Source of the DNA: a virus
Virus record (IMG/VR): IMGVR_UViG_3300044982_000085
Coordinates: 1 to 48,447 of that record
Reading direction: 5' to 3' (one strand)
Length of the DNA: 48,447 bases
Shown here piece by piece: positions 27,642 to 43,683 of this stretch (position 1 is the stretch's first letter; each line of letters begins with the position of its first letter). Both the position numbers and the translations under genes were made by a program. Under the pieces are notes generated by a model, which saw only the letters and a list, made by a program, of their open reading frames with translations, had not been told where the DNA came from and made no database searches.

Positions 27642-30047
27642 TCACTTCCTGAAACGTTTGCCGCGCCACCCTCCGCGGGCGAAGATGGGCCACCCTGTCG
27701 CCCACGGGGGCATCGTGTTCATCTCGCGCTCAAATTCTTCGACGCTGCCAAACCCCTCGGGGATCTCCGCGACGTTTTCATCATAGACGTGCAGCACGAT
27801 CGGGTAGCCCGCCGCTTCCTGGCGCAGCTTGCCGTGACGCTGAATATCGTTGGCGACGGCCTGGCACGCATTCTCGATACAGATGCCGGCGTAGAGCGGC
27901 ATATCGATCCAGCCGTAGGGGCCCTTCTTGGGATTGGTGTTCCACCCCTTGAAAGTGATCGCCAGTCCGCGCCAGTCTTGCGGCGCCGGGTAGATGCGTG
28001 GCTGATGATAGGGAATGCGCCGGCCGCTGGGCAGCTCCATATAGAGCACGCGATCGTAGACAAACCAGGTCAGGCCGCTGAATGTGCCGTCGAGCCGGTG
28101 CACCGCGTACCGGTAGCCCGGGTTTTGGATGGCGGCGATCGCCATGCCCTCCATGCCGTGCAAATACGTGTGGTTATCCCACGGCTTCGCGCCAAGCGTC
28201 TGGGCCTGCACGGCTTCCCACGTGGGGCCGCTGCACGCCATGCCCCCGGCGGCGAGCGCCTGACGGTGCCACGCGATGATGGCGGGGTGGGCCTTCTGGC
28301 CGCCGGCCAGAAACACGATCGAGGGAGAGGCATGGCGCCACGCCAAAATGTCGGCGATGATCTCCTCATCCGTTCCTGGCATATCGAATGCCTTCGCTGA
28401 TCCGAGCCACCCCATGTACCCGAAAGCGAGCTCCGCGATCTTGCCTTTCTTCCGCAAGGGATGGTGATCCCCCGTGGTTGCTTTGCAGTCGAGAATCGTC
28501 TGTAGCGGCACCTTGAACATCTGGCTGGCCGACGCTTCGTAGATCTTGCCGTGAGTGCGGAACACGTCGATACGCCACTGTTCCCCGGATAGCATCGCGT
28601 TGACCACGGCTTCAATCGCCGAGTAGTCGCTGCCCACCAGGTCATGGCCGGGCGCCGCGGTGAAGAGACCGCGCAAGCATCCGCTGATGACGCCCATGGC
28701 GTCGCCCCAAATGCGCTCGAGGTACTGCAGGTTGCGCGAGCGGATGATGTCTAGCGCATCGTCGGCCGCCTCCACGTTCCAATCAAACTTCCGGGCGTCA
28801 GGCGCGCGCACCGTGTTGCAGTGGGGGCACGTCGTGCGCGGCGCCGGGTACCAGCGCGTACACATGGCGCACTGGTAGCACTCCGGCCCCGAGTTGGGCA
28901 GATTGGTGGGCTGCGGGCCGTTGCCGGTGGGGCGCCCCGTGCGCGCGCCGTGGAACGTAAAGAGGTCGTGGAGGCGATCGGCGAGCGTCGCTTGGTTGAG
29001 GATTGCAAATACCTTTTTGACGCTGGCGCTGCCCACCGTCGCGCGGATCTCCAGCACGCGAGTGCAGATCGGCACGTTGGAACAAAAGCGTACCGAGTCA
29101 TCAACCAGTGGGGTGGCGCGCAGGTGCTTCAACGCCAGTTCTACGCTCTCTTCGTCCAGCGAGGTGAGATAGACGTTGTGCGCCGCCAACCATCCGAGGA
29201 TCTGTTGCACCTTGCTGGCGGCGTCGATCCCGGTCAGCTGTCGCAACTCGATGTTGTAAAACTCCAACGCCTGCTCCACCAGGTCGGCACACGCTTGAGC
29301 ACTCTCCCGGTCGATATGCACGCCGCGCTCGTTGATAGCTTGGTCGAGCAGCCAGTATTCCAACTCGGGCGCCGGCAGATCCGGCACACGCCTCGACACC
29401 TCGGCCTCCGCCGCAATGTCCGTTTCGTTGTATGCCTGATAGTCCAGTGCGTCGCTCGGTGCATCGTCGAGCCGGATCCGGGTGCGTGGGTCGGCCTTCG
29501 TGGGATTGCGCGGCATGGAGAAAATGTTCATCAACGCCTTGCCGCGCTTGTCCTTTTGGATGGGCGTCTGCAGCACGCCAGCGACGTCGTCCAACGCGGG
29601 AGGCAGTGACCACGCGCGGCACTTGGCCATCGAGCAGCGCAGCTGATCGGGGCGCAGCGGAGGGAAGCCCAGCTTCACCGCCACGCGACTCCAGATCTTG
29701 CGCTCGAACCCGGCGTTGTGCGCCTCGAGCAGCTGCCCGCGCTGAATGTGGTCGACGAGGTCCGCCGGCAGCGGTTGGCCCTGGCGCCACCGTCGACGCC
29801 CGCGACCGTCTTTCAGATCGTAGGCCAACATCAGCAGCTCGGCGGTGGGGTGCTCCGCATAGCAGGCCGCCCCTGTAACGGGTAGCCCCTTCTTGCCTTG
29901 CGAGGCGTGCGGCAAGCAATCCCACTTGCGGGAGCCGGCATTCCACACGTAGCCCGCTTGGCTATACGTCTCCACATCGATATCCGGCAGGATCGTGGCG
30001 TAGCCAAATCCCGCCGGCACGCATTGGCCCGCGAGCAGCTCCGTCAC
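27642..30047 (-). CDS. Family A DNA polymerase with 3'-5' exonuclease and zinc-ribbon insertion
   Basis: 801 residues from GTG 30047 (GTGA overlap with rdgC). Exonuclease motifs: DIDVET (D24, E26), HNAGFE (110-115) and YNETD (206-210). Polymerase motif A GSDYSAIEAVV (D474), motif B RKKGKIAELAFGYMG (532-546) and motif C HVYDENV (D756, E757), where the usual His before Asp is Tyr. A Cys-rich insertion C390/C393/C396 ... C407/C410 follows the TGRPTGNGPQPTNLP motif. No 5' nuclease domain. Replicates the phage genome. Confidence 0.92.
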   Translation of the reverse strand: MTELLAGQCVPAGFGYATILPDIDVETYSQAGYVWNAGSRKWDCLPHASQGKKGLPVTGAACYAEHPTAELLMLAYDLKDGRGRRRWRQGQPLPADLVDHIQRGQLLEAHNAGFERKIWSRVAVKLGFPPLRPDQLRCSMAKCRAWSLPPALDDVAGVLQTPIQKDKRGKALMNIFSMPRNPTKADPRTRIRLDDAPSDALDYQAYNETDIAAEAEVSRRVPDLPAPELEYWLLDQAINERGVHIDRESAQACADLVEQALEFYNIELRQLTGIDAASKVQQILGWLAAHNVYLTSLDEESVELALKHLRATPLVDDSVRFCSNVPICTRVLEIRATVGSASVKKVFAILNQATLADRLHDLFTFHGARTGRPTGNGPQPTNLPNSGPECYQCAMCTRWYPAPRTTCPHCNTVRAPDARKFDWNVEAADDALDIIRSRNLQYLERIWGDAMGVISGCLRGLFTAAPGHDLVGSDYSAIEAVVNAMLSGEQWRIDVFRTHGKIYEASASQMFKVPLQTILDCKATTGDHHPLRKKGKIAELAFGYMGWLGSAKAFDMPGTDEEIIADILAWRHASPSIVFLAGGQKAHPAIIAWHRQALAAGGMACSGPTWEAVQAQTLGAKPWDNHTYLHGMEGMAIAAIQNPGYRYAVHRLDGTFSGLTWFVYDRVLYMELPSGRRIPYHQPRIYPAPQDWRGLAITFKGWNTNPKKGPYGWIDMPLYAGICIENACQAVANDIQRHGKLRQEAAGYPIVLHVYDENVAEIPEGFGSVEEFEREMNTMPPWATGWPIFARGGWRGKRFRK

Positions 30048-30934
30048 GCCGCACCCACCGGTGGAATGTTGAACCAGCGCGTCATCTTGTCGAGCAGCCC
30101 GGCCACTGCGGACGCCTGCAGGAAGAAACTAGCGTCACCCGGGTTGCGGCCATCTTCCTCGTCGTCCTGCAAGTCAAACTTCAACTTGCGCAACACGAGA
30201 TTCTCATCGAGCACAAATTGCAGTCCCTCGATGCCGAGCGCCAGACGTTTGACAGTTTTGCCGCCGCTCAGGCTCTCGAAAATCTCATCGGTCTGCAGAT
30301 CTTGGCGACGAAAAATCGCCCGCGGGCCTGACGGGGCAGCACGATCATTGAGTTCGCATTCATCGCCGAGTGCCACTTCGACGGGGGCTCCCATGTAGTT
30401 GTCGAGCCATGCGGTCATCTCGGTGCGCGGCGACAGCTCCGGCGCAGGCGGCACGACCGGCAGTGAGCCCAACGCCTCGCGCAATTGCCCCACGACGTGC
30501 AGCGCCTCTTTGGGGCTTGCGGTGTCGAGGCACAACCACCCCAACGACAGATCAAACCAACCGTAGACACGCTTATAGCGGATCGGGGCATGGGGGAGCA
30601 GGCGCGCAATGATGTCGTCACGCATGCGCTTACGCTCACGGCCGCCGACCTTGCGCCCCTCCAGCTCGGCGATGTTGGCCACGGTGCGGTCAAGCGTGCG
30701 ATTGACATGGGACATCTGCAGCTGACGCGTGCCGGTCTCCACGCAAAACTGCAGGCGTGTGCCTACGTGGCGGACGAAGTGCGCGCCATCGATCATGGCG
30801 AAGCCACTGGTTTGTAACGTGGCGGGACCGGGATCAAAGAACGGGTATTGCGGCACGACCTCGGCGAGCCGGGTCAGCACGTCCAGGCCCGTGACGGAGC
30901 CGAAACGAAACAGCGTGAGATTGCGAGGGGTCAT
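30044..30934 (-). CDS. rdgC: RdgC-like recombination-associated protein
   Basis: 296 residues, usual RdgC length. Matches include NLTLFRF at the start, LEGRKVGGRERKRMRDDI, RYKRVYGWFDLSLGWLCLD and a conserved end (GKTVKRLALGIEGLQFVLDE). RdgC binds double-stranded DNA as a ring and limits RecA action. In this phage it directly precedes the polymerase gene and follows the SSB gene after a terminator, so it is part of the replication/recombination set. Confidence 0.85.
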   Translation of the reverse strand: MTPRNLTLFRFGSVTGLDVLTRLAEVVPQYPFFDPGPATLQTSGFAMIDGAHFVRHVGTRLQFCVETGTRQLQMSHVNRTLDRTVANIAELEGRKVGGRERKRMRDDIIARLLPHAPIRYKRVYGWFDLSLGWLCLDTASPKEALHVVGQLREALGSLPVVPPAPELSPRTEMTAWLDNYMGAPVEVALGDECELNDRAAPSGPRAIFRRQDLQTDEIFESLSGGKTVKRLALGIEGLQFVLDENLVLRKLKFDLQDDEEDGRNPGDASFFLQASAVAGLLDKMTRWFNIPPVGAA

Positions 30935-30947
30935 AACTCGGGCTCCG

Positions 30948-30989
30948 TGAAAAGACCCGGCGCAGCAGGGGGATATCCACTGCGCCGGG
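30948..30989 (-). terminator. Hairpin terminator between SSB and rdgC
   Basis: 10-bp perfect stem CCCGGCGCAG/CTGCGCCGGG (30956-30965, 30980-30989); on the minus strand it is followed by TCTTTTCA. It may act as a partial terminator, setting polymerase/rdgC expression below SSB. Confidence 0.75.
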
Positions 30990-31006
30990 TAAAGGTCGCA
31001 CCCGTG

Positions 31007-31927
31007 TTACGGGGTGAGTATACCCGCAGTGATCAGCTGCTCGTCACTCCACCCGGCGGCGCGGTAGGCGTCGTAAGTGGTCATGGCCAGTGCGGTCAAT
31101 TGTCTAACCGGCGCTGCGGGGGGTGCAGGTGGTGCGGGAGGCGTGGCCGGCGGCGTTGGCGCTGCGGGGGCCAGTATCGCCGTATTGGGCACCGTAGGCA
31201 GCGGAGGCGGCGGTACAACAGCCGCGGGAGTGCTGGGCGGTGCCGGTGGACCCGGCGGGGGCGGCGTGGCTGCAGCGACCGTGACAGGGGCCAATGCACC
31301 GGCGGGCACTTCGGAGGCACCGGCGGGGAGTGGCGCTTGGCCAAAGCCCACCGACGCCGCGTCCATGCCGAGCTGAATTTCGGTGCCGAATGCTGAGTAC
31401 GCGACCATGTTGTAATTCAGGTAGACGCCCGGATTGCCGGTGCTTTTGTTGCCCGCCACGCTGCCCGCCACTTGGATGAAGTAGCCGGCCTTGATCGTGT
31501 CCGGCGGGATCGCCGAGCTACCGTCGCGGTTGAACGTCTTGGGCGGATTGGAGCCACCGAACCACACGACCCAGTGACCCGGGTAACCCTCGGCCTCGCA
31601 GGGCTTTTTGCCCTTCTTGTTCGGAACCTGGCTATCGCCGTCTTGAATCTTCCACGAGAAACCGGGAGCGTTGCCCTGTCCGGCGGGCCATGCCGCGTGG
31701 CCAGCGGCCCAAATGATGGCGCCCCATGCCGTGTTCGCCCAGTGCGTATGGCCGGCTTCCTTGGCGAACGCTACGCCGAAATTCCACTCGGTGCGCGGCT
31801 GGCCAATGTTGTCGCCGGACTTGTAGACAATCGGCCGGCCTTCGTAGTCGGTGCTGCGACCCTGAGAAACACTACCGCCCACCAAGCGGCCAACAGGGAA
31901 AAGAATCGGTGTAGCTTGATCAGACAT
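31007..31927 (-). CDS. Single-stranded DNA-binding protein (DUF2815-like) with Pro/Ala linker
   Basis: 306 residues from ATG 31927 (AGGGA upstream). N-terminal 190 residues match DUF2815 phage SSB (VGRLVGGSVSQGRSTDYEGR, WNFGVAFAKEAG, FIQVAGSVAGNKSTGNPGVY). Then about 80 residues of Pro/Ala-rich linker and a conserved-looking C-terminal peptide (YDAYRAAGWSDEQLITAGIL) likely used for partner binding. Coats single-stranded DNA in replication and recombination. Confidence 0.8.
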   Translation of the reverse strand: MSDQATPILFPVGRLVGGSVSQGRSTDYEGRPIVYKSGDNIGQPRTEWNFGVAFAKEAGHTHWANTAWGAIIWAAGHAAWPAGQGNAPGFSWKIQDGDSQVPNKKGKKPCEAEGYPGHWVVWFGGSNPPKTFNRDGSSAIPPDTIKAGYFIQVAGSVAGNKSTGNPGVYLNYNMVAYSAFGTEIQLGMDAASVGFGQAPLPAGASEVPAGALAPVTVAAATPPPPGPPAPPSTPAAVVPPPPLPTVPNTAILAPAAPTPPATPPAPPAPPAAPVRQLTALAMTTYDAYRAAGWSDEQLITAGILTP

Positions 31928-31938
31928 AAGGTATCCCT

Positions 31939-32340
31939 CTAGTTGCGAATCGCCAGCCATGCGGCCAGCCGTGTGAAAATGGGGGTGTCGCCGCTACTAC
32001 CTGGCGCATCGACGGTGTCAAGAAACTGGTGCACGGTGTCGCGTTCTGTAACGTTCTGCGTAATCTCAGAAACGCAGCTGTTGTAATTGAAGCGCAGCAA
32101 CTCGATTTCTTGCTCGAGGGCATCGTGTTTAGCGTGCCACTCGTTAGAGCTGCGTTGCGCGTCGCGCAGTTCACTCTGCGCTTTGATGCGCCCTTGCACC
32201 TCGGTCGCTAACGAGTTTTTATAATCGTCGATACGTGCAGTGGCGTCGCGGAGCACTTGCGCTGCGGTGTCGATCTGCTCTCGCAGCGCGCGCTGCGCTT
32301 TGAGGCTCAACGGCTTCTGTTTTGCTTTGCGCTTGATCAT
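31939..32340 (-). CDS. Coiled-coil protein, function unknown
   Basis: 133 residues, ATGA overlap with the DUF2800 gene. Basic N-terminus (MIKRKAKQKPLSLKAQRAL), then a long predicted helix rich in Glu/Gln/Arg up to about residue 100. Located between nuclease and SSB and behind the candidate promoter at 32415-32443. Confidence 0.65.
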   Translation of the reverse strand: MIKRKAKQKPLSLKAQRALREQIDTAAQVLRDATARIDDYKNSLATEVQGRIKAQSELRDAQRSSNEWHAKHDALEQEIELLRFNYNSCVSEITQNVTERDTVHQFLDTVDAPGSSGDTPIFTRLAAWLAIRN

Positions 32341-33455
32341 TTTGAGTTCCCAAAAAGTTTGCGGGCGGCCTTGGTGTCGGCCGGCACAACGCGGAGTTCA
32401 CCGCGTGGAGTATCAGAGTATTTCATAATGACGGCTTCGTCAATACCGAACCCCACCGCCTGTTTAGGCGTGACCAAGGCCGGCTTGGCGAGGTCCACAC
32501 CGAACAATGCGCCGAGGTCCAGCACCTCCCGCACCGGCTTGGTCCAGCGTTGCCGCGTGGTCGCCGCCTCGAGTTGGAACATCGGCACATCCACTCCGGC
32601 TTTGATGCGCGCCATCACTTGCGCTTCCAAGCCCGCATGACGCGCCTCGAGAGCTTTACGTGCGCGGCTCAGCTTCTGAAACTCACGCGCCAAGGGGCCG
32701 GGCGCCAAGTCAAACGGCACGCTGTCCCCCGTGATGGCCAACGCTTCGTAGCCAGCACGCTGCAGCGCATCGCAGCGGTGCGACGCGGGGCAATCGATGC
32801 ACTCCTCGTTGACCACACATTGGCTGTCCGGGCCGATGTCGTGCGCCACGCTGCTCATCGTGTTGAAGTAGCTGCGCAGATCCGAGGCTCGGATTTCCCA
32901 TGTGCGCACCGGCTGACCGCGGTAGAAGCACCGTGGCTGAACGATGTGCATACGCACGAGAATCAGCTGATCCGCCAAGCCGTCCAGGTGCTCGAGGATG
33001 GCGGCCACGTAGGCAATCAGTTGCCAGCACTCGAACACCTCCACGTATCGGTGGCCGAATTTGTAATCGAACAGGTCGAGGATGTTGACGTCAAAGCCCC
33101 ACGAGTCGGGCGTGCCCCACAAATCGGGGTGCAATCCCGCAGCCGCCGCACGCTGCTCCACGTGCAGGCCGTCGCGCCACGTCGCGCCACGCACGGCTTT
33201 GATGTGGTCGGCATAGAGCGCGGCGCCCTCCAGCATCTCCACCGTGATGGCGACGCCGTTGGGCGCAAGATCCCCTTCGCGCGGTATCGGCATGTCACAC
33301 AACATCTGCGCGGCCACCCAGTGTGCGGCGGTACCCTCGGCGGCTTCCTCGCTTTCCGGTTCGGGCGGCGTGGCTTCAATCATTGCAACGCTGCCTTTAC
33401 ACACCATCCAGCGCGAAGCGGAGCTCGGGGCAAGTCTGGCGTGGTCGTCACTCAT
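32337..33455 (-). CDS. DUF2800 PD-(D/E)XK nuclease
   Basis: 372 residues. N-terminus APSSASRWMVCKGS and EGTAAHWVAAQML are the start of DUF2800/Cas4-like exonucleases; the active-site region is GTPDSWGFDVNILDLFDYKFG with Lys near the end. A Cys cluster (CVVNEECIDCPASHRC) could hold zinc or an iron-sulfur cluster as in related nucleases. Likely 5'-3' recombination exonuclease working with the SSB. ATGA overlaps on both sides. Confidence 0.8.
   Translation of the reverse strand: MSDDHARLAPSSASRWMVCKGSVAMIEATPPEPESEEAAEGTAAHWVAAQMLCDMPIPREGDLAPNGVAITVEMLEGAALYADHIKAVRGATWRDGLHVEQRAAAAGLHPDLWGTPDSWGFDVNILDLFDYKFGHRYVEVFECWQLIAYVAAILEHLDGLADQLILVRMHIVQPRCFYRGQPVRTWEIRASDLRSYFNTMSSVAHDIGPDSQCVVNEECIDCPASHRCDALQRAGYEALAITGDSVPFDLAPGPLAREFQKLSRARKALEARHAGLEAQVMARIKAGVDVPMFQLEAATTRQRWTKPVREVLDLGALFGVDLAKPALVTPKQAVGFGIDEAVIMKYSDTPRGELRVVPADTKAARKLFGNSK
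32415..32443 (-). promoter_or_regulatory. Leftward promoter with TGACG-N4-CGTCA palindrome
   Basis: Minus strand: ATTGACG with TTGACG at 32443-32438, 17-base spacer, TACTCT at 32420-32415; palindrome TGACG-N4-CGTCA at 32429-32442. It lies in the 3' part of the DUF2800 gene and points at the coiled-coil, SSB, rdgC and polymerase genes. Three similar sites occur at 34.3, 36.1 and 37.5 kb. Confidence 0.6.
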
Positions 33456-34291
33456 ACGGAGGGGAAGAAATGCGCGTTGAATTGAGCGATGGCCGCGGGG
33501 TTGGTCACAATCTCGCGCAGATTGGCCACCTGCAGTTGCGTGACCAAGTAGTTATCGATATCCACTTTGGAGATTTTCCCAGTTGTGACGGCTTCCTGCA
33601 CGCGGCCGACCAAGGTGGGGAAGTCGATAACGGTCGGTGCCGCGGGCGCTGGCGGTGCGGGTGGCGCAGGGGGCTGGGCTTCGGCCATCGCATTGGCGAC
33701 GGGTGGCGCAACGGCTCGGCCTTGGCGTGCATCATATTCCGCGCGAACACTCTCAACGAGGTGTTCTTGCACGCCACGCTTCAATTTCCACGTGTTATCC
33801 GATTGGATGCGTGCGCGGCTCGATGCGTGGATGCGCTCATCCCATTCGTAGCCTGCCGAGTCAACGACTGGGACACGGCCGGTCGCCGCATTGGGGGCAG
33901 CTGGCGCGACCGGCGGCGGAGGGGCAGGCGGGACGACGTTCGGTGCCAAAGTAACCGGCGGCGCCGCGGGGGCAATCGGCAATGGTGCGGCAACCGCAGG
34001 CGTATCGGCAACACTCGGCGCCAAAGGGCCGCCACCGCCAAAGGTCGCACGGGCCGTGGCGATATCGTCTTGCAGGCCGACCGCTTCGCCGAGGGCCGCG
34101 GAGGGATGCTCCGACTCCTCCAGCTTTGCTACGGTTTCGCGCAACGCTTGTTCGAGCTGCGTACCGTCGAGCTTGAGCGTGATCTCATTCTCATGCGATG
34201 AGACGCCACCGAGGGCCAATACCGCATTGGACAATCGGCGGGCCTCGCTGGCGCTGAGCTCCCCATCGATGTTAATCGTTACGTTGATCAT
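33452..34291 (-). CDS. Replication-region protein with Pro/Ala linker, function unknown
   Basis: 279 residues. N-terminal strand-helix unit (INVTINIDGELSASEARRL, LDGTQLEQALRETVAKLEES), Pro/Ala-rich linkers at about 90-135 and 200-220, a middle WDERIHASSRARIQSDNTWK segment common in phage proteins, and a helical C-terminus. Architecture (domain, Pro/Ala linker, terminal helix) resembles the SSB two genes away. First gene of the leftward unit starting at the divergent promoter. Confidence 0.7.
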   Translation of the reverse strand: MINVTINIDGELSASEARRLSNAVLALGGVSSHENEITLKLDGTQLEQALRETVAKLEESEHPSAALGEAVGLQDDIATARATFGGGGPLAPSVADTPAVAAPLPIAPAAPPVTLAPNVVPPAPPPPVAPAAPNAATGRVPVVDSAGYEWDERIHASSRARIQSDNTWKLKRGVQEHLVESVRAEYDARQGRAVAPPVANAMAEAQPPAPPAPPAPAAPTVIDFPTLVGRVQEAVTTGKISKVDIDNYLVTQLQVANLREIVTNPAAIAQFNAHFFPSV

Positions 34292-34317
34292 ACTTGCGAC
34301 CTCTTGAGTGTTTTGGG

Positions 34318-34361
34318 TTGACTGCCGACGAAGCCTAACCCCATAATGACGGCATCGTCAA
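34318..34361. promoter_or_regulatory. Divergent promoter pair with shared palindrome
   Basis: Plus: TTGACT (34318-34323), 18-base spacer, CATAAT (34342-34347), 28 bases before the helicase ATG. Minus: TTGACG (34361-34356), 18-base spacer, TAGGCT (34337-34332), toward the gene at 34291. Both overlap TGACG-GCAT-CGTCA (34347-34360), so one regulator could control both directions. Confidence 0.6.
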
Positions 34362-34374
34362 TAGGGAATTTTTC

Positions 34375-36129
34375 ATGCCTGCACTGCGCGCCCCCCAAGC
34401 CAAACTTAAACAGGGCATTCAGTCCGCATGGAGTAGTGGCGCTCAGGTAGTGATGGCGGTCGGCCCGACCGGATTCGGAAAAACCGTCACGTTTGCGGAT
34501 CTCCTCCTCGATGAATCGGATGCTACCGCCGCCATCGCTCACCGTCGCGAATTGGTAGGACAGATGTCCCTGGCGTTGGCACGTAACGCGGTGCGACATC
34601 GTGTCATCGGCCCCAAGGAGTTGTGTCGTCAGATCGTTACCGCCCACATGGCGGAGTTGGGGCGCAGCTATTACGACCCGAGCGCGAAATGTGGCGTGGT
34701 GGGCATTGACTCACTCCCCGGTCTCAGTGCTTGCGATCCATGGTTGGGGCAGGTGCGCATGTGGGTGGGCGACGAGGGCCACCACTTTTTGCGCGACAAC
34801 AAATGGGGCCGCGGCGTGGCGCTTTTCCGTCGCGCTGAGCGCGGCGTGTTGTTCACGGCGACCAGCTTTCGCGCCGACCGCAAAGGGCTGGGCCGCGGCG
34901 TGTTGCTGCCAGACGGCGTGACGTGGAGCAATGATGGCATCGCGGATGCTCTCGTGCTCGGGCCGACGATGGGAGAGCAGATCGCGCAAGGGTACCTCAC
35001 CAATTTCAGGCTGTTTACGCCGCCCTCCGATGTGGACTACTCAGACGTTAACGTGACTGACTCGGGCGACTTGTCCCCGGTCAAGCTTCGCGCGGCGGTG
35101 CATCGCTCGACGCGGTTCGTCGGTGACATCGTGGCGGAATACCTACGCATCGCGCCGGGAAAACTTGGCGTCACGTTCGCGGTGGACGTCGAGTCCGCGA
35201 CGAAAATAGCGGTTGCTTTTCGCATGGCGGGCGTGCCGGCGGAAGTGGTCAGCGCCAACACCCCCGACGGCTTGCGACGAAACATTCTGCAACGGTTTCG
35301 TCGTCGCGAAATACTGCAACTCATCAACGTGGACCTCTTTGGCGAAGGTTTTGACTTACCGGCTATTGAAGTCGTCAGTATGGGGCGCAAGACCGAAAGT
35401 AAGGCGCTGTTTGATCAACAGTTCGGCCGCGCGCTGCGCCTTATGGTGGATGAAGATGTCGGCCGCGGGTGGGAGGAGCACACCGTAGAAGAGCGTCTCG
35501 CCCACATCGCCGCGAGCAGCAAGCCCTACGCCATCATCATCGACCACGTGGGGAACATTGAACGGCACCTCCCGCCCACGGCGCCGCGTTATCACACGCT
35601 GGCGCGAGGGGATCGGCGCATCAAATCCGATTTCACTGATGCCATCCCGATGCGCACCTGCCTCAATCCCGATCCCGTGTGCGCGGCATCGTATGAACGC
35701 GTGCTCAAAGCGTGCCCGATATGCGGATTCGTGCCGGAGCCGGGACGCCGCGATGGGCCGCAGTACGTCGACGGGGTGTTGCACGAGCTGTTGCCCGACG
35801 TGCTGGCCGCGATGATCAAGGCGCGGGATTTGCGCGACGCCCCGCCGCTCTACCCCGCCAATAGCAATATCGTTATCTCCGCGGGCATCCGCAATCGCCA
35901 CGACGAGGCGCAGCAGGCCCAGGCGCGGCTACGCAAGGCCATGGCACTGTGGGCTGGCCACCGAACTGGGCGCCTCGGTCAGCCGCTCGATGAGGCGCAG
36001 CGCCGGTTTTATTACATGTTCGGCGTGGATGTGCTCACGGCCCAAGCATTCCCCCGCGCCGAGGCCGAGGCGCTGGCGCTACGTATCGAGACAAAAAACG
36101 CTATTGACGGCCTCGTCACTATGGGCTAG
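34375..36129 (+). CDS. SF2 DEAD/DEAH-like helicase
   Basis: 584 residues. Motif I GPTGFGKTV (30-38), motif II DEGHH (133-137), motif III-like FTATSFR, and motif VI QQFGRALR near 350. The C-terminal part contains a small Cys pair (CPICG, with CLNPDPVC upstream) that may be a zinc knuckle, then a helical domain. Resembles phage and RecQ/UvsW-type DNA or RNA unwinding enzymes. First gene of the rightward island. Confidence 0.88.
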   Translation: MPALRAPQAKLKQGIQSAWSSGAQVVMAVGPTGFGKTVTFADLLLDESDATAAIAHRRELVGQMSLALARNAVRHRVIGPKELCRQIVTAHMAELGRSYYDPSAKCGVVGIDSLPGLSACDPWLGQVRMWVGDEGHHFLRDNKWGRGVALFRRAERGVLFTATSFRADRKGLGRGVLLPDGVTWSNDGIADALVLGPTMGEQIAQGYLTNFRLFTPPSDVDYSDVNVTDSGDLSPVKLRAAVHRSTRFVGDIVAEYLRIAPGKLGVTFAVDVESATKIAVAFRMAGVPAEVVSANTPDGLRRNILQRFRRREILQLINVDLFGEGFDLPAIEVVSMGRKTESKALFDQQFGRALRLMVDEDVGRGWEEHTVEERLAHIAASSKPYAIIIDHVGNIERHLPPTAPRYHTLARGDRRIKSDFTDAIPMRTCLNPDPVCAASYERVLKACPICGFVPEPGRRDGPQYVDGVLHELLPDVLAAMIKARDLRDAPPLYPANSNIVISAGIRNRHDEAQQAQARLRKAMALWAGHRTGRLGQPLDEAQRRFYYMFGVDVLTAQAFPRAEAEALALRIETKNAIDGLVTMG

Positions 36130-36132
36130 CCT
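36104..36132 (+). promoter_or_regulatory. Rightward promoter with TGACG-N4-CGTCA palindrome
   Basis: TTGACG 36104-36109, 17-base spacer, TAGCCT 36127-36132; palindrome 36105-36118. Located over the last codons of the helicase gene; likely start of the 36158-37567 gene group. The -10 is weak (three of six). Confidence 0.5.
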
Positions 36133-36157
36133 TCGCCTAACTTATGGGAGAGCACCC

Positions 36158-36427
36158 GTGGATCGTGGCATAAAAGAAATGATCGAAGAGATGCAAAGCC
36201 TACTCGATGATATGCACGGCATCGAGGAAACTTGCGACTCCTTAGAAGCATCGCGGGATGAGGCGGTGGGAGAGCGGGACGACTTGCAAGACCAGATCAA
36301 CACTAGCTATGTGGAGATCGAAGCGCCCCGCGCCGTGCTATCCCTGATCGATCGCGGGTACCTCGTGCTGATCGATCCGGCCTACCAGGTAGAGATTGAC
36401 GATTTGCGAAAGGCGTGCGGGCTATGA
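36158..36427 (+). CDS. Small coiled-coil protein
   Basis: 89 residues from GTG 36158 with GGGAGAG upstream. Strongly acidic, heptad-like (MIEEMQSLLDDMHGIEETCD, ERDDLQDQINTSYVEIE). No family recognised; ATGA overlap with the nuclease gene. Confidence 0.65.
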   Translation: MDRGIKEMIEEMQSLLDDMHGIEETCDSLEASRDEAVGERDDLQDQINTSYVEIEAPRAVLSLIDRGYLVLIDPAYQVEIDDLRKACGL

Positions 36428-36897
36428 ATGTCTTTTACGAATGGGCCGCTGCGTGGGGCATTCCGCCGGGCGCATTGAATGATCTGCGCAAGCGGCTTAT
36501 GGCCGGGGATGAAGTGCCGTTAACGCCCGGCGTCAGTGAGGCGGCGGTTCAGAACCAAGTGCGCCTCGAGGCCACACGCAAAGGCGGCCGGTTGTGGCGC
36601 AACAACGTGGGGGCGCTGCCCGATGCACGCGGCGTGCCGGTGCGCTATGGCCTGGCCAACGATTCGGCGGCCGTCAACGCGGTGATCAAATCCAGCGATC
36701 TCATTGGTCTCATGCCCAAGATTGTCACGGCGGCGCACATCGGCCAAACGTGGGGTGTCTACACGGCGCGGGAATGCAAGGATGGTTCGTGGCGCTACGC
36801 CGGCACCGAGCGCGAGCAAGCACAACTCCGTTATCTCACATTGGTGAGTTCCTTGGGCGGGGATGCCGCCTTTTGCACGGGAGAGGGTACGTTATGA
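36424..36897 (+). CDS. VRR-NUC-type nuclease
   Basis: 157 residues. Pattern SEAAVQNQVRLEATRKGGRLW (E near start), WRNNVGALPDARGVPVRYGL, SDLIGL, then ARECK (the E-x-K) and EREQAQLRYLTLVSSLGGDA with FCT near the end match VRR-NUC/PD-(D/E)XK nucleases related to Holliday junction resolvases. Likely processes branched DNA before packaging or in recombination. Confidence 0.82.
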   Translation: MNVFYEWAAAWGIPPGALNDLRKRLMAGDEVPLTPGVSEAAVQNQVRLEATRKGGRLWRNNVGALPDARGVPVRYGLANDSAAVNAVIKSSDLIGLMPKIVTAAHIGQTWGVYTARECKDGSWRYAGTEREQAQLRYLTLVSSLGGDAAFCTGEGTL

Positions 36898-37337
36898 AAA
36901 CACTACTGGCTTTGATGTTCGCATTGTTCTGCGGTGCGGCTTGCGCAGCCGATTTCGATCTCGGTACGTTCAGCCCCGGCTTGTCGGGGGTCAATACGCA
37001 GTGGCACTACCTGAGCGACACGCTGTTTTACACCTCGCATCGAAATCCCGCCTTTCCCGCGGATACGGAAGTGGTGATCAAAATGGGGAAACGCGGCGCG
37101 AGTGGCAAGATGCTGCACGTGTACCTTTTCACTTTCGATATTCGCTGTCCCGCCGATGGATCGACGCCCGACACGTTTGGCACCGAGGGGTACACGCAAT
37201 TTGACGGCAGCGGAAACTATATCGGCCAGTTGGTGAGCGATCGACCGGGCGGCGAAGATAGCGATACAGACAGCAACCCGGTGGCCGCCGCGGTGTTTGG
37301 GCTGGTGTGCCGTGAGCATCAGGTAGCGCAGCGATGA
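36894..37337 (+). CDS. Secreted or periplasmic protein, function unknown
   Basis: 147 residues, ATGA overlap with the nuclease. Clear Sec signal peptide MKTLLALMFALFCGAACAA with cleavage before DFDLG. The mature part (about 127 residues) is beta-rich and has one cysteine pair (IRCP ... GLVCRE) for a possible disulfide. Uncommon among replication genes; could be a moron affecting the cell envelope, superinfection or host signalling. Confidence 0.75.
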   Translation: MKTLLALMFALFCGAACAADFDLGTFSPGLSGVNTQWHYLSDTLFYTSHRNPAFPADTEVVIKMGKRGASGKMLHVYLFTFDIRCPADGSTPDTFGTEGYTQFDGSGNYIGQLVSDRPGGEDSDTDSNPVAAAVFGLVCREHQVAQR

Positions 37338-37567
37338 ACAAGCAGGAACAATTCGTCGAGGATCAGCAGGGGCCGGAGTGGACTCGCATAGCTCTGAGAA
37401 TGCTCTACGGGGCTCATGGGGATTACGAAAATAAAAAGATGCACATTCGTGCAAAGACTAAAGGCCTCGTGTGCCACGATCGGGTGTTGACGTGTTACCC
37501 CCGTACTGTCGGGGCCGAATACGTTAGAGCGCTGGCGATGATTGACGGTCTCGTCACTACGGTTTAA
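37334..37567 (+). CDS. Small hypothetical protein
   Basis: 77 residues, ATGA overlap with the secreted protein. Basic central segment (YENKKMHIRAKTKGLVCHD) and an end IDGLVTTV that resembles the helicase end IDGLVTMG, because both overlap a palindromic promoter. Function unknown. Confidence 0.6.
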   Translation: MNKQEQFVEDQQGPEWTRIALRMLYGAHGDYENKKMHIRAKTKGLVCHDRVLTCYPRTVGAEYVRALAMIDGLVTTV

Positions 37568-37570
37568 TCT
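37542..37570 (+). promoter_or_regulatory. Rightward promoter with TGACG-N4-CGTCA palindrome
   Basis: TTGACG 37542-37547, 17-base spacer, TAATCT 37565-37570; palindrome 37543-37556. About 28 bases before the TetR-like gene start, suggesting that gene may be autoregulated; primase-helicase follows. Confidence 0.65.
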
Positions 37571-37597
37571 GACTCAACTTTCCTCGAGCACCGCATC

Positions 37598-37921
37598 ATG
37601 ACGAAAAAGAAAAGCCCCGAGGTGCGCCGCGAGCAGATCCTTGCCGCAGCGATCACCCTAGCGGCTCGCACCAACTACGCCACCGTGACACGTAAACAGA
37701 TTGCCGACCATTGCGGCATCGCCGAGGGGCTCGTGTCCAAGTACCTCGGCACCATGATCGAGCTGCGTCGCACGCTGATGCGCACTGCCGTCCACGATGC
37801 GCCCACCAATCCCCACGCGCGCCGCATCGTGGCGCAGGGGCTGACCGCGGGGGATAAGCACGCTCGCAAAGCCTCTGACCTCGTGAAGAACCTGGCCATG
37901 GTTGAAGCCGCTCAATCGTAA
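37598..37921 (+). CDS. TetR-like DNA-binding protein, short
   Basis: 107 residues. Residues 8-60 read as a TetR N-terminal helix-turn-helix (RREQILAAAITLAARTNYAT, RKQIADHCGIAEGLVSKYLG). The rest is too short for a ligand-binding domain (normal TetR about 190-220). It could repress through the palindromes found nearby; this is inference. Lies between the promoter and the primase-helicase gene. Confidence 0.75.
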   Translation: MTKKKSPEVRREQILAAAITLAARTNYATVTRKQIADHCGIAEGLVSKYLGTMIELRRTLMRTAVHDAPTNPHARRIVAQGLTAGDKHARKASDLVKNLAMVEAAQS

Positions 37922-37933
37922 CCGGAGCGTGCC

Positions 37934-40312
37934 GTGGAACAATTACCCGAGGCGCTAGCTCCCCTAGCTGCTTACAAACAGTTCATCGTTTATAAACTGA
38001 TTCCGAGTCTTGATCGGGTCGGAAAGACCGACAAAATGCCGGTGGATTTTCGCACCGGCCAGATACGCAACGCGCACGAGCCCGCGATATGGTGCACGGC
38101 CGCGGAAGCGATCGACCACGCCAAGCGCATGGGCGCCCCGCACGGTGTCGGCTTCGTGTTTACGGACGCCGATCCTTTTTGGTTCCTCGACATCGACGGA
38201 GCGTGGGATGCCCAGATGCAGCAATGGTCACACGTGGCCCTCGCACTGTGCCAGCGACTCAGCGGCTGCGCCGTGGAGGTCAGCTCCAGCCACACCGGCC
38301 TGCACATCTTTGGCACGGGCGACATCCCGCGGCACGGCACACGCAATACCGAATTGCACCTCGAGTTCTATCACACGAAACGCTTCGTTGCCCTGACCGG
38401 CATCAACGCCGCCGGCAGCGCCGCCTACGCACCGCCTGCCCTCGCCGCCCTTGTCGCTGAATACTTCCCGCCCATCGGCGATGGGTCCAGCAACGCCGCG
38501 GATTGGTGGACAGAAGCACCGGTTGCGGCCTGGCGCGGGCCGGCCAACGATGCGGACCTCCTACGCCGCGCGCTGCAATCCAAGTCAGCCCGATCGCAGT
38601 TTGGCGCCTCTGCCAGCTTCCAAGCCCTTTGGGATGCCGATCCGGGCACCCTGGCCACGCATTGGCCGCCGGACAAGGCCGGACACGCGTACAACGCCTC
38701 CCACGCGGATATGGCCTTAGCGCAGCACCTGGCCTTCTGGACAGGCAACAACGCGCAGCGCATGTACGACATGATGTGGCAATCGGAGCTCGTGCGCGAC
38801 AAGTGGCACGCTCGCGACGGCTACGTGCGCGACACCATCCGCGCCGCGTGCGCCCTACAAACCGAGTGGTGCCAAGATAAGGCCGTTGAGCTGCCCGGCC
38901 TCCCTACGCCCGCACAGACGGTCCCGGCCCCCTCTAGTCCCGCTTCGCCGGCTCCCGCACCGCAGCTGATCACGGGAAGCACGTTCCTCGGGCCCGACCA
39001 GCAAGTGCAGCTCTTTGCCGGCTGCTGCTACGTGGCCGACATCGATCGCATCATGATTCCGTCTGGCGTGATGATGAAAGATCGCCAGTTTCGCACCCGG
39101 TACGGCGGTTTGACGTTCAGTCTCGACGCCGGCAACGAACGCACCACCCGCAACGCGTGGGAAGCCTTCACGGAGTCCAGCGTGTACCGGTTCCCCCGCG
39201 CCGATGCGTCATGCTTCCGGCCCTTGCTACCCGCCGGTGCGCTGATCGAGGAGAATGGCCGCGCCTTGGTGAATCGTTACGTGCCGATCGATATCCCGCG
39301 CATGCAGGGCGATGTGTCCCGGCTTTGGGCGCATCTTCGGATGCTGTTGCCGGCGGAGCAGGACGTACAGATCCTAATGGCCTACATGGCCGCGTGCGTG
39401 CAGCATCAGGGGCATAAATTCCGATGGGCGCCGCTGATCCAGGGTGTCGAGGGCAACGGTAAAACACTGTTGGCCAACATGGTGCAACGCGCCGTGGGCA
39501 AGCATTACACGCACTGGCCGCTGGCCAAGGATATCGCCAACAACTTCAACGCGTGGCTCGAGGGCAAGACACTCTACATCGTCGACGAGACGTTCATCGA
39601 CGATAAGCGCCTCGATGTGATGGAGACCCTCAAACCGATGATCACCAGCGAAGAAGGTATTCAGATCACGTTGAAAGGCGTGGACTCGGTGACGCGCGAC
39701 ATCTGCGGCAACTTCCTGTTCTTTACGAACCACCCTGACGGTTTGCGCAAGTCGCGCAACGATCGCCGCATTGCGCCCCTCTTCACCGCGCAGCAACGCG
39801 CGGGCGACCTGGCCGCCACCGGTATGACAGAGGCGTATTTCGAGGATTTCACCGACTGGCTCAAGCGGCGCGACGGATACGCCATCGTGGCGGATTTCCT
39901 GTGGACCTACCCCATCCCGCCGGAGCTCAACCCGCGCAGCATGGCACGCGCTCCCCAGACCTCCTCCACAGATACGGCCATACGCGAGGGACTCGGCGCG
40001 ATCGAGCAAAACATCCTCGAGGCGATCGAGCAAGACGAACCGATGTTCCGCGGCGGCTGGGTATCGAGCGCCGGCATTAAACGCGTGGCCGATGCGCTGC
40101 GCCGATCACTCCCGCAGACCAAATACAACGGCGTCATGAATGCGTTGGGCTACGTACCGCATCCCGGCTTACCGGATGGGCGCAGCAATAATCGCGTCAT
40201 GCCCGAGGCGCAACGCTCACGGCTCTATGTGCGCAGCGGCACACCCGCGGCGATGCTCACCAATGGCGCGGAGATTGCGGCCGCGTACCAGGCCGCGCAG
40301 GTGTCGCAATGA
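37934..40312 (+). CDS. Primase-helicase (primase-polymerase-like N-terminus, SF3-like helicase)
   Basis: 792 residues from GTG 37934 with CGGAG upstream. N-terminal domain has FLDIDGAWD (D86, D88) and VSSSHTGLHIFG (about 116-127), signatures of archaeo-eukaryotic primases. The helicase part carries Walker A GVEGNGKTLLA near residue 504, followed by IVDETFIDDKR and FFTNHPDG. Combines primer synthesis and unwinding for replication. Confidence 0.9.
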   Translation: MEQLPEALAPLAAYKQFIVYKLIPSLDRVGKTDKMPVDFRTGQIRNAHEPAIWCTAAEAIDHAKRMGAPHGVGFVFTDADPFWFLDIDGAWDAQMQQWSHVALALCQRLSGCAVEVSSSHTGLHIFGTGDIPRHGTRNTELHLEFYHTKRFVALTGINAAGSAAYAPPALAALVAEYFPPIGDGSSNAADWWTEAPVAAWRGPANDADLLRRALQSKSARSQFGASASFQALWDADPGTLATHWPPDKAGHAYNASHADMALAQHLAFWTGNNAQRMYDMMWQSELVRDKWHARDGYVRDTIRAACALQTEWCQDKAVELPGLPTPAQTVPAPSSPASPAPAPQLITGSTFLGPDQQVQLFAGCCYVADIDRIMIPSGVMMKDRQFRTRYGGLTFSLDAGNERTTRNAWEAFTESSVYRFPRADASCFRPLLPAGALIEENGRALVNRYVPIDIPRMQGDVSRLWAHLRMLLPAEQDVQILMAYMAACVQHQGHKFRWAPLIQGVEGNGKTLLANMVQRAVGKHYTHWPLAKDIANNFNAWLEGKTLYIVDETFIDDKRLDVMETLKPMITSEEGIQITLKGVDSVTRDICGNFLFFTNHPDGLRKSRNDRRIAPLFTAQQRAGDLAATGMTEAYFEDFTDWLKRRDGYAIVADFLWTYPIPPELNPRSMARAPQTSSTDTAIREGLGAIEQNILEAIEQDEPMFRGGWVSSAGIKRVADALRRSLPQTKYNGVMNALGYVPHPGLPDGRSNNRVMPEAQRSRLYVRSGTPAAMLTNGAEIAAAYQAAQVSQ

Positions 40313-40638
40313 AGCCGCGCATACGCCAGACTGGCCCCATCACTTGGGAGTGTCGCTCAGCTTGGAAATGCGGGTGGGGGTTCACTCCAGTGCAAGCCTA
40401 TCGGGCTTGGCGTCGTACGCCCGAATGGCCCCACATTGCGCCGGGGCTTTTTGACAAAGGAGGGGCGTACTTGTCGAGTGTCAGTGAAACAGATGAAGCC
40501 ACGCAATCAACGCGCATACCAGCATTGACCACGCCCAGCCGTGCCACCCGATCCGGCTATAGATGGGCGGCGCGCTGGGCGGCGTGGTGGAATAGGGCGG
40601 TAGGCCGGACAGAAAGAAAAACAGCGCCGCGAGAATGA
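40309..40638 (+). CDS. Small protein with Cys/Trp-rich N-terminus
   Basis: 109 residues, ATGA overlap with primase-helicase. The first 50 residues (RIRQTGPITWECRSAWKCGW, FTPVQAYRAWRR) resemble a family of tiny phage proteins of 45-60 residues. The remaining part runs antisense across the membrane gene at 40481-40660 and is less convincing; the true gene may have been extended. Confidence 0.5.
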   Translation: MKPRIRQTGPITWECRSAWKCGWGFTPVQAYRAWRRTPEWPHIAPGLFDKGGAYLSSVSETDEATQSTRIPALTTPSRATRSGYRWAARWAAWWNRAVGRTERKTAPRE

Positions 40639-40660
40639 GAAACACCAGGGTCATGTTCAT
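40481..40660 (-). CDS. Small two-segment membrane protein
   Basis: 59 residues, ATG 40660 to TGA 40481. Hydrophobic MTLVFLILAALFFFLSGLPP, a Pro/Ser/Tyr loop, then WAWSMLVCALIAWLHLF. Both segments could cross the membrane. Overlaps the rightward gene by 158 bases in antisense. Reading frame, length and hydrophobic pattern strongly support a real gene. Confidence 0.72.
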   Translation of the reverse strand: MNMTLVFLILAALFFFLSGLPPYSTTPPSAPPIYSRIGWHGWAWSMLVCALIAWLHLFH

Positions 40661-40725
40661 GGGCCGGAGCGTGCGCGGCGCGATGTGATGAGACTGTAAA
40701 AGATGACCGGATGCGATCCCGGCAT
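40657..40725 (-). CDS. Possible 22-residue peptide
   Basis: ATG 40725 with AGAGG six bases upstream; reads MPGSHPVIFYSLITSRRARS and ends in ATGA overlap with the small membrane protein. It may be a leader peptide for coupled translation or a real micropeptide. Short length makes it uncertain. Confidence 0.35.
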   Translation of the reverse strand: MPGSHPVIFYSLITSRRARSGP

Positions 40726-40813
40726 GGGGTACCTCTGAACATCCCGGGCTGCCGAGTCGAACGGCGAGGAGTGCTTTGCACCTGCCCTGCGTATCGCCTA
40801 CGCATTCATCCTC

Positions 40814-40972
40814 TTAAAGTTTATCCGATAAATCGTCGCGATCAATGGGGTACGCCTTGTCACGCTCGACATAACGGACCTCCCACGGGGGAATGCGCCA
40901 ACCCTCGGCGTCTTGATAGCAGACCCCGTACAGAGCGAGATCCTCGAGCAGCAATCGCGCGTTGTCGTCCAT
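40814..40972 (-). CDS. Small hypothetical protein
   Basis: 52 residues, start overlaps the previous stop (TAATG). Acidic, with GWRIPPWEVRYVERDKAYPI. No family recognised. A run of 88 bases without a gene follows before the 22-residue peptide frame. Confidence 0.6.
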   Translation of the reverse strand: MDDNARLLLEDLALYGVCYQDAEGWRIPPWEVRYVERDKAYPIDRDDLSDKL

Positions 40973-41178
40973 TATGCCGCAGGCTCCGGCACGACCCACC
41001 ACTGATCGATGCGCGCCGTGTAACCTGGCTCGAAACGAATCACGTAGGTGAAATAATGCGCAGGCTCTCTTACGCCTCGGTTGCAGATAGCGTGATCGAT
41101 GACGCCCACCTCGTTGCCTACCCGGACGCGGAGGCCCGGGACGAGAGGGTGAATAGTTTTGCGGATGGATGAGTTCAC
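40972..41178 (-). CDS. Small hypothetical protein
   Basis: 68 residues from GTG 41178 in GTGA overlap with the methyltransferase-like gene; ATG 41193 inside that gene is an alternative. Beta-looking with VPGLRVRVGNEVGVIDHAIC and FEPGYTARIDQWWVVPEP, resembling small SH3-like or KOW-like barrels, a guess only. Confidence 0.6.
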   Translation of the reverse strand: MNSSIRKTIHPLVPGLRVRVGNEVGVIDHAICNRGVREPAHYFTYVIRFEPGYTARIDQWWVVPEPAA

Positions 41179-41918
41179 GGCGAAAACCCCCATTGATCAG
41201 CCATAGCATCAGCGATGCCTTGGTAAGTGATAGCGCGAAGATGCGCCCGGTCAGGTGAGGGACTAAGCTTGTTTTGCCCGCTATCGGTCTGGTTACCCCA
41301 TCGTTCGCGCATCCGAATCCCGCCGCATCGCGTGCAATCATCGTTGTACTTGGCCATGTCTTCGTAGGTCATGTGATTACCGCAATCGGCGCATACGTAG
41401 CGCGGGCTGATGGGCTTCGTCGGCTTCAGGTCCGGCAAATTACAGTTACGCCATAGCCCTGTGGATTTACTGGCGTCATCGCCAAACTGATGAGGCTGAA
41501 TGACCTGATCCGCTGGCCGGTACATCGTGCCCAAAAACGACGGCGAAGGGTTTTCCGCCTCGACATTGAAGGGCAAATCCATCAACCTTCTGAAATTGGA
41601 CACGGCTTCATCACGAGCGGCACGTCGCTCTGCACCCACGAGCGTTCTTGGCTTCAGCTTCTGATGATACGGTCCATCCTTGAAAGCCCATGCAGCAGAA
41701 ACGGTGAGGTAGGTGCAGTCGGGGTGGAAGATGCCCAGATCCCAGTAGCCGACCTCGCCGGTGAGAATGCGCCAGATGTCGTCCTGCAGGTGCCATCGAG
41801 CGCCTTCCGGGTCAGTGCCTCGGTACGGTTGCACGTCGCAGCTCCATGCCTCGTGACCGCGTTTGCGAAACGCTGCCGCCACGACACCGCTGCACTCATA
41901 CCCGGCAAGGACTCTCAT
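41175..41918 (-). CDS. DNA cytosine methyltransferase-like protein
   Basis: 247 residues from ATG 41918 (ATGA overlap). Starts MRVLAGYECSGVVAAAFRKR with SCDVQPY, resembling the SAM-binding motif I of C5 cytosine methyltransferases. The catalytic region reads GIFHPDCTYLT (usual PPC, here PDC), then VEAENPSPSFLG and a phage-type end (ITYQGIADAMADQWG). A Cys4 knuckle (CADCG ... CTRCGG, about 190-215) is inserted. Could modify phage DNA against restriction; activity uncertain given the altered motif. Confidence 0.75.
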   Translation of the reverse strand: MRVLAGYECSGVVAAAFRKRGHEAWSCDVQPYRGTDPEGARWHLQDDIWRILTGEVGYWDLGIFHPDCTYLTVSAAWAFKDGPYHQKLKPRTLVGAERRAARDEAVSNFRRLMDLPFNVEAENPSPSFLGTMYRPADQVIQPHQFGDDASKSTGLWRNCNLPDLKPTKPISPRYVCADCGNHMTYEDMAKYNDDCTRCGGIRMRERWGNQTDSGQNKLSPSPDRAHLRAITYQGIADAMADQWGFSP

Positions 41919-42097
41919 GCCCCGATTTCCTTGGCGATGCGGTTCGGCAGCTGGCAATTCGCGACCCATTTCGGCGCGTTGCAGATGCCAAAAATCCGAT
42001 TGTCGCGGATGACCGTGAACACTTTATTATTGCCGACGATCACGACGTTCTGCACGAAGATGCGGAGATCGGGGGTAGCGTATCCGTAGCGGGCCAT
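41915..42097 (-). CDS. Small hypothetical protein
   Basis: 60 residues, ATG with GGAGAG upstream, ATGA overlap with the methyltransferase-like gene. Contains IFVQNVVIVGNNKVFTVIRD. First gene behind the leftward promoter at 42126-42155. Function unknown. Confidence 0.65.
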   Translation of the reverse strand: MARYGYATPDLRIFVQNVVIVGNNKVFTVIRDNRIFGICNAPKWVANCQLPNRIAKEIGA

Positions 42098-42125
42098 GGC
42101 GGTGCTCTCCGTTGAAGTGGAACCA

Positions 42126-42155
42126 AGCTTACAACCGGCAATTCTTGCCTGTCAA
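42126..42155 (-). promoter_or_regulatory. Leftward promoter with GGCAA/TTGCC palindrome
   Basis: Minus: TTGACA (42155-42150), about 18-base spacer holding GGCAAGAATTGCCGG, then TAAGCT (42131-42126). Closely similar to the site at 45745-45773. Overlaps the 3' end of the preceding small gene. Confidence 0.55.
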
Positions 42156-42332
42156 GCCCTTTCGTCGCAGATGCGCTCCGCTGCTGCGCGTGATGATGCC
42201 GCGCTTGCTCAGATCCTGGCGCAAGGCGTCCAGCTCGCGGCGGTATCGCTGCGCATCGTAGGGATGACCGTCGTGCACCGCCTCAATCATGAGATGGCGC
42301 AACAGACGGTAATAGGGCAGCGGATCAGCCAT
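42129..42332 (-). CDS. Small basic hypothetical protein
   Basis: 67 residues. Helical first half (YYRLLRHLMIEAVHDGHPYD, RRELDALRQDLSKRGI) and a basic tail whose last codons overlap the promoter. No family recognised. Confidence 0.55.
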   Translation of the reverse strand: MADPLPYYRLLRHLMIEAVHDGHPYDAQRYRRELDALRQDLSKRGIITRSSGAHLRRKGLTGKNCRL

Positions 42333-42534
42333 ATCCAGCGAGTGCCTCGAGGGCGATGCGGAACGTGTAAGACATGGCCAGCGCCCCGCTCACGTAGTTG
42401 CGCAGCGTGCGCTCACTGCAGCCCAGGCGCTGCGACACCTCCACTTGCGTCAGCCCCGTGGCGTCCACGAGGGTGCGGGCGTACGTGGCGGGTACCGAGG
42501 ATGCCTTGCGGGCGTCGGGCTTGCGTGCGGTCAT
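42325..42534 (-). CDS. Small helix-turn-helix protein
   Basis: 69 residues from ATG 42534 (ATGA overlap). Helix-turn-helix visible in TGLTQVEVSQRLGCSERTLR followed by NYVSGALAMSY, as in Cro/XRE-like regulators. Could regulate nearby leftward promoters; target unknown. Confidence 0.75.
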   Translation of the reverse strand: MTARKPDARKASSVPATYARTLVDATGLTQVEVSQRLGCSERTLRNYVSGALAMSYTFRIALEALAGYG

Positions 42535-42794
42535 GGCATTCTCTCGAGCAGGGTGATGAAGAGGGTGGGGAAAGACTGGGCGCACCACGCGCGGGCCTCT
42601 GCCTCATTACGAAACACGAAGCCCTCCACCGGTTTGCCGACGTCAAAGCCGATGCGCCATAGCTTGGGCATCGTGGCTAGGGTCGCTTCGTAGTCGTCGC
42701 AGAGATCGAGGATGGATTGCAGCTCGCTGACCGATAGCGATGGCGCATCGTCAGCGAGCCATGCGCGGAGTTTCTCGACGACTATAACGGACAT
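42531..42794 (-). CDS. Small hypothetical protein
   Basis: 87 residues from ATG 42794 with GGAG eight bases upstream (GTG 42803 would be too close to it). Helical N-terminus (EKLRAWLADDAPSLSVSELQ), then FVFRNEAEARAWCAQSFPTL resembling a phage-type short alpha/beta unit. Unknown function. Confidence 0.65.
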   Translation of the reverse strand: MSVIVVEKLRAWLADDAPSLSVSELQSILDLCDDYEATLATMPKLWRIGFDVGKPVEGFVFRNEAEARAWCAQSFPTLFITLLERMP

Positions 42795-43135: not shown

Positions 43136-43421
43136 TTGAATAGTCCTGTTGAAACATCCATGGTTGATATCGAATGCCTGAGAGATACGCCATGGCGTTG
43201 AGGTCGCGTAGGATTTGTTCCGGGGTGGCTGGCTCCCATGTTGCCTGTAAGGTATACCCGCGGGTGAGTTGCAAACCGCCCCATGATGCATCGGTGCGCC
43301 CTTGCGAATAGGCACTCAGAGCCCACGCGGGTAACGTGCCTTGCGGCTTGGCGTAGAGGCCCATGTGCTGCTCGCGTTGGCCTTGCGCGTAGAACCAGCG
43401 TTTGCCGGCGAGACGTTTCAT
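43125..43421 (-). CDS. Hypothetical protein
   Basis: 98 residues from ATG 43421 (GAAGGAG upstream, ATGA overlap). Basic, aromatic-rich (KRLAGKRWFYAQGQREQHMG, GGLQLTRGYTLQATWEPATP). Unknown. Confidence 0.6.
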   Translation of the reverse strand: MKRLAGKRWFYAQGQREQHMGLYAKPQGTLPAWALSAYSQGRTDASWGGLQLTRGYTLQATWEPATPEQILRDLNAMAYLSGIRYQPWMFQQDYSNEL

Positions 43422-43681: not shown

Positions 43682-43683
43682 GG

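Follow-up and report, generated by a model that had tools for sequence, protein, structure and literature searches.

The stretch of DNA analysed here (the window) is an entire IMG/VR virus record, IMGVR_UViG_3300044982_000085, of 48,447 bases, whose sheath, head and baseplate genes mark it as a contractile-tailed phage (myovirus). In its replication module the palindromic dyad TGACG-N4-CGTCA is found at 32429-32442, 34347-34360, 36105-36118 and 37543-37556, each time as part of a promoter-like sequence, and we propose that a short TetR-like protein encoded in the same module acts on these sites. The stretch conserved among the sites is longer than the dyad and reaches CGTCA-YTAYG. The full promoter pattern, TTGACG-N4-CGTCA-YTAYG-...-TANNCT, has exactly four matches in the window (32443-32415 and 34361-34332 on the minus strand, 36104-36132 and 37542-37570 on the plus strand) and none in shuffled versions of it; the spacer between the -35 and -10 elements measures 17 base pairs (bp) at the first, third and fourth site and 18 bp at the second. 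The dyad alone averages 0.06 occurrences per shuffled window (maximum 1), which agrees with the chance expectation of 0.05 given in the first-pass annotation of this DNA; the four shared TTGACG-N4-CGTCA sites that it listed, each with a -10-like hexamer 17 or 18 bases after TTGACG, are likewise borne out. A fifth perfect dyad (8445-8458) lies inside the head-protease gene; both it and a near-match at 47991 are without a -10 element and are treated as chance occurrences.

The first two sites are directed leftward and the other two rightward, and three of the four lie within the 3' ends of genes. Promoter/operator 1 (32415..32443, minus strand; TTGACG-N17-TACTCT, operator TGACGAAGCCGTCA) is held by the C-terminal codons IDEAVIMKYS of the DUF2800 exonuclease gene (32337..33455, minus) and stands ahead of a small open reading frame (ORF; 31939..32340, minus) that has no family match in Pfam and PHROG searches, and of the gene for a Gp2.5-like single-stranded-DNA-binding/annealing protein (SSB; 31007..31960, minus; PHROG 7011, 5e-65), beyond which come RdgC-like and DNA polymerase A genes. 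Promoter/operator 2 (34332..34361, minus; TTGACG-N18-TAGGCT, operator TGACGATGCCGTCA) is the leftward promoter for the side that holds the exonuclease and SSB genes and, identified by family matches, the genes for an RdgC-like protein (30044..30934, minus) and DNA polymerase A (27642..30047, minus); it would also serve the first gene to its left (33452..34291, minus; PHROG 11133), which encodes a protein conserved in relatives. A consensus scan also finds a candidate divergent promoter for the helicase gene (34318..34347, plus; TTGACT-N18-CATAAT, 10/12 matches), and operator 2 would sit on its start-site region, so that one operator could serve both directions. Promoter/operator 3 (36104..36132, plus; TTGACG-N17-TAGCCT, operator TGACGGCCTCGTCA) occupies the final codons of this DEAD/DEAH-type helicase gene (34375..36129, plus; assigned by family matches), ahead of an operon with a nuclease gene (36415..36897, plus; PHROG 93). 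Promoter/operator 4 (37542..37570, plus; TTGACG-N17-TAATCT, operator TGACGGTCTCGTCA) is held by the last codons, MIDGLVTTV, of a small ORF (37334..37567, plus) and lies about 55 bp upstream of the start codon of the TetR-like gene (37598..37921, plus; 107 amino acids; Pfam TetR_N 2.9e-5; PHROG 8723), with a gene for a primase-polymerase (37934..40312, plus; DUF5906, NrS-1-like domain) further downstream.

A motif search in relatives had been set beforehand as the test that could refute a common regulon, and the motif proved to be conserved. Related IMG/VR loci were fetched with the nuclease protein and not with the motif, which avoids selection for the motif itself and makes the nuclease an unbiased anchor; it was chosen because alignments of the TetR-like protein held no stretch conserved enough, and single-protein IMG/VR scans with the TetR-like protein and the primase of the window found nothing. 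In the 77 new loci thus obtained (1.02 Mb), TGACG-N4-CGTCA occurs 116 times where about one occurrence is expected, while the counts fall to 0-3 with other spacers (0 to 12) and to 0-2 with scrambled half-sites. For the shorter form TGAC-N6-GTCA the count is 197, compared with about 10 at other spacers. In the same loci TANNNT is sharply concentrated at +23 from TTGAC, equivalent to a 17-bp spacer, in 162 of 417 oriented sites; the promoters of the relatives combine good -35 and -10 elements with this optimal spacing. When a weight matrix was trained on 135 promoters of the relatives, with the window excluded, its top scores in the window were the four sites (42.2, 30.7, 28.2 and 19.8); the opposite strand of two of the four dyads scored 20.5 and 11.7, the next unrelated site in the window only 1.7, and the shuffle maximum was 12.2.

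The dyad is found in phages of Klebsiella, Escherichia, Edwardsiella, Pantoea, Vibrio, Shewanella and, with the half-site TGACA, Acinetobacter; phage 138 shows dyad promoters, and phiPLPE has variants with a single mismatch. A DNA-only IMG/VR scan with a 20-base pattern returned 82 loci, a number near that expected by chance, of which about 36 encode the same replication module; this motif-only set was kept out of the statistics. A scan of bacterial genomes with a similar pattern, used as a negative control, gave 119 scattered hits, only 3 of which have a -10 element at 17 or 18 bp.

The places at which the dyad occurs are also conserved. The first-pass annotation had located the sites at the SSB/polymerase, divergent helicase, nuclease and TetR-like/primase units, and these four places recur in the relatives. 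Of the related loci eligible for each place, 32 of 52 have an exact dyad at the exonuclease end, before the SSB gene; the corresponding counts are 30 of 75 for the stretch ahead of the TetR-like gene, 22 of 64 for the divergent helicase region, 20 of 64 for the helicase end and, in addition, 14 of 68 for the stretch after the primase. If one mismatch is allowed, 43 of the 54 dyad-positive loci have a dyad at most 160 bp upstream of the TetR start, in most cases between -55 and -63 (-55 in the window), against a background of 10% of random stretches with a dyad within 160 bp. The operator ahead of the TetR-like gene is often off-consensus in the relatives, with GGCA, GACA or GACC half-sites, as would suit a weaker autoregulatory site.

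The operator at the exonuclease end is written inside codons. The C-terminal peptide [IV]DxxVIxx[YF] is encoded as ATT GAC NNN NNN GTC ATT ... TAC/TAT, and the Val codon in the peptide IDxxVIxxYS is GTC in 36 of 44 phages. These 36 cases fit the operator pattern by definition, and the relevant yardstick is how the remaining Val residues of each gene are encoded: in most of the exonuclease genes only a minority of Val codons are GTC (14% in that of the window). Four Jedunavirus-like phages with an intergenic SSB promoter keep the peptide and write it ATC GAC CCG TCC GTT; a related locus with zero dyads (L164) has the peptide codons ATC GAT GAA GCC GTT. In Acinetobacter phage Scuro the operator reads TGACA-N4-TGTCA, and the peptide is changed from IDEAVI to IDKNVI. 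A protein-coding explanation of the first site was rejected, since the same peptide uses other codons where the operator is absent. Because the choice of the Val codon follows the operator, we conclude that the exonuclease-end site is under regulatory selection beyond that on the protein.

The first-pass annotation suggested a single palindrome-recognising regulator for all promoters of the replication module. This idea finds strong comparative support in the conservation of the dyad, the fixed spacing to the -10 element, the recurrent gene positions and the site just before the TetR-like gene. The regulator had been left unnamed; by this evidence its likely gene is the TetR-like one (37598-37921). 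This gene is found in 78 of 80 nuclease-anchored loci; the two loci without it (L113 and L140, one of which is short) have zero dyads. The window protein matches the TetR_N helix-turn-helix (PF00440) with 24.2 bits at a cutoff of 24, as do 53 of 56 family members, and the profile hits in the PDB are TetR regulators. Its recognition helix reads GIAEGLVSKYL. An AlphaFold model of the protein (predicted local distance difference test score, pLDDT, of 96) is all-alpha, in keeping with the all-helical TetR fold, and its top Foldseek hits are TetR-type with probability 1.00, although the best E value is only 7e-3 and the template-modelling (TM) score about 0.57 to 0.66. The closest PDB folds are TetR-family regulators of the LuxR/SmcR/HapR group, and the closest viral models are similar in size to the window protein. 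Across the relatives the length ranges from about 92 to 220 amino acids, the window protein being about half as long as canonical TetR. In many loci (among them L093, L066, L135, L142 and L119) the protein has 166-220 amino acids and an apparent second, N-terminal helix-turn-helix-like segment, e.g., RRELCDRAGIPDGSFPHVMG, to which the greater length in relatives is apparently due. The location of the palindromic operator in the core promoter, including that before the regulator's own gene, is also as expected for the TetR family.

The reading that we favour, with a probability of roughly 0.78, makes the TetR-like protein an autoregulated repressor that controls the sigma70-type early promoters of the replication module through TGACG-N4-CGTCA; binding, repression and timing we infer from the sequence. 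The four sites would be sigma70-type promoters with the dyad operator in the -35 and spacer region, from which the host polymerase would transcribe the module upon phage entry. The TetR-like protein, encoded just after promoter 4, would bind the operator as a dimer and block RNA polymerase, and as it accumulates it would lower the transcription of all four units at once, that of its own gene among them, providing early-gene shut-off or control of expression level. Several observations weigh against this reading. The protein has no canonical TetR C-terminal ligand-binding/dimerisation domain and does not reach the roughly 200 amino acids expected of the family; the -10 hexamers in the window share only 3 of 6 positions with the sigma70 consensus TATAAT; and none of the four promoters is called when the window is scanned with a plain consensus. 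All four of these hexamers have the form TANNCT, which may reflect promoter preferences of the host; those of the relatives are TANNNT, with C uncommon (17%) at position 5.

The poor -10 hexamers in the window also make help from a protein conceivable, and the TetR-like protein might thus activate these promoters, or act both ways, as do some TetR-family quorum regulators: its nearest folds are in the LuxR/SmcR/HapR group, whose members can activate or repress. However, the relatives have good promoter elements at the optimal spacing, and the operator covers the -35 element and spacer, or elsewhere the spacer or the -10 element, and never takes a fixed upstream position suited to an activator. 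Because all versions of the operator lie within the core promoter, steric repression is favoured over activation, which we regard as unlikely. It is just as improbable that the dyad is bound by another factor, of host or phage, and that the TetR-like gene is merely a member of the regulon. Phages do encode other small DNA-binding proteins; but the recurrence of the dyad across phages of seven host genera, from Klebsiella to Acinetobacter, argues against a host factor; the hits in bacterial genomes are only chance-like, and the near-universal presence of the TetR-like gene, together with the lack of dyads where it is missing, speaks for its product. That the dyads belong to a replication origin, serve as some other kind of cis-element or arise by coincidence of protein coding, and are not promoters, is very improbable: they do sit in a replication module, and three of the four are intragenic and in the same reading frame, but the peak in -10 spacing, the pattern of synonymous codons, the intergenic copies in relatives and the positions at gene starts all speak against it.

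In the favoured reading, repression by the TetR-like protein extends to relatives with a different operator, the operator having turned over across the phage group. Phages with the same genes and few or no TGAC dyads have different shared repeats or dyads in the corresponding promoters, as read by eye. In Pseudoalteromonas phage PY6 the spacer holds GTAGCGC-N4-GCGCTAC, and in Aeromonas phage AeroV_348 GGGCT-N6-AGCCC lies on the -10 element; VP16T, CKB-S1 and 1.009 have TTAGATTAGC-type repeats around the -10 element, and SFCi1 has GTTACGTAAC after it. De novo dyad finding without restriction was overwhelmed by coding background where genomes are GC-rich; a listing restricted to promoters worked. 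All 53 dyad-positive non-redundant proteins have G, A or S at residue 44, in the recognition helix, and 9 of the 23 dyad-negative ones have P, Q or T there, a suggestive indication that the residue follows the class of operator. We give about even odds to the idea that the TetR-like protein and all its operators, some four to nine sites per genome, changed their specificity in step on many occasions across this large phage group, in a natural series of whole-regulon rewirings during which the operator changed in sequence and slid from the -35 element to the spacer to the -10 element, even altering the overlapping exonuclease peptide. Two further points weigh against the favoured repressor reading: the operators of the dyad-negative phages were recognised by eye, and the link between recognition helix and operator is not significant in a tree-based test, which offers one supported independent pair on a tree poorly resolved for so short a protein.

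Taken as a whole, the system is probably a conserved, TetR-controlled replication regulon with operator turnover. Lambda Cro and the anti-CRISPR-associated Aca proteins are small autorepressed helix-turn-helix regulators of phages that act in negative feedback on an inverted-repeat operator in an early promoter. The TetR-like protein resembles them in its size and helix-turn-helix, in the inverted-repeat operator in an early promoter and in the proposed feedback, but belongs to another fold family, and here one class of operator spans a whole replication module and lies partly inside coding sequence. With TetR-family repressors (TetR, QacR, AcrR and SmcR/LuxR/HapR) it shares the TetR_N helix-turn-helix and a palindromic operator over the core promoter, just before its own gene. 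Unlike them, it is a protein of about 100 amino acids without the canonical C-terminal domain, it occurs in tailed phages, and the one operator serves several replication promoters. Comeau and colleagues described tetR genes in phiPLPE, CP-T1 and 138, which belong to the same gene family as that of the window, and proposed that they may be co-opted for the phages' own purposes, with mention of osmotic stress (PMC3391216); their text mentions neither a promoter nor a palindrome, motif or operator. Neither the paper on SFCi1 (PMC5371815) nor a review covering PEAT2 and Jedunavirus relatives (PMC8472413) describes the operator or the regulon, and no description was found in the open-access literature searched. 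The proposed regulon supplies a target for a family of genes commonly labelled 'putative TetR regulator' or 'hypothetical protein', and gives a testable regulatory logic to a widespread, little-annotated group of lytic phages that includes many Klebsiella phages. The many natural repressor-operator pairs, in which the whole regulon apparently has a changed operator, make regulon rewiring directly testable, and the operators inside coding sequence are a clear case of dual coding.

At the DNA level, megablast of window positions 25000-45000 against 50,697 phage records found no relative, Jedunavirus and related dwarf myoviruses included. The replication module is homologous to that of these phages; the primases are 42-48% identical, and the TetR-like gene is conserved. 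A DNA methyltransferase gene lies at 41175-41969 (minus strand; PHROG 757, 1e-43), and several relatives also have annotated methyltransferase genes in this module. Downstream of the module, four related loci have arrays of TTCGC/GCGAA spaced at 15 bp (L145, ~11666-12048; L151, ~11357-11690; L152, ~10974-11335; L184, ~8632-8909). Near the right end of the record, a gene at 47130-48353 (minus strand) encodes an RtcB-like RNA/tRNA splicing ligase (PHROG 1075, 9e-150).

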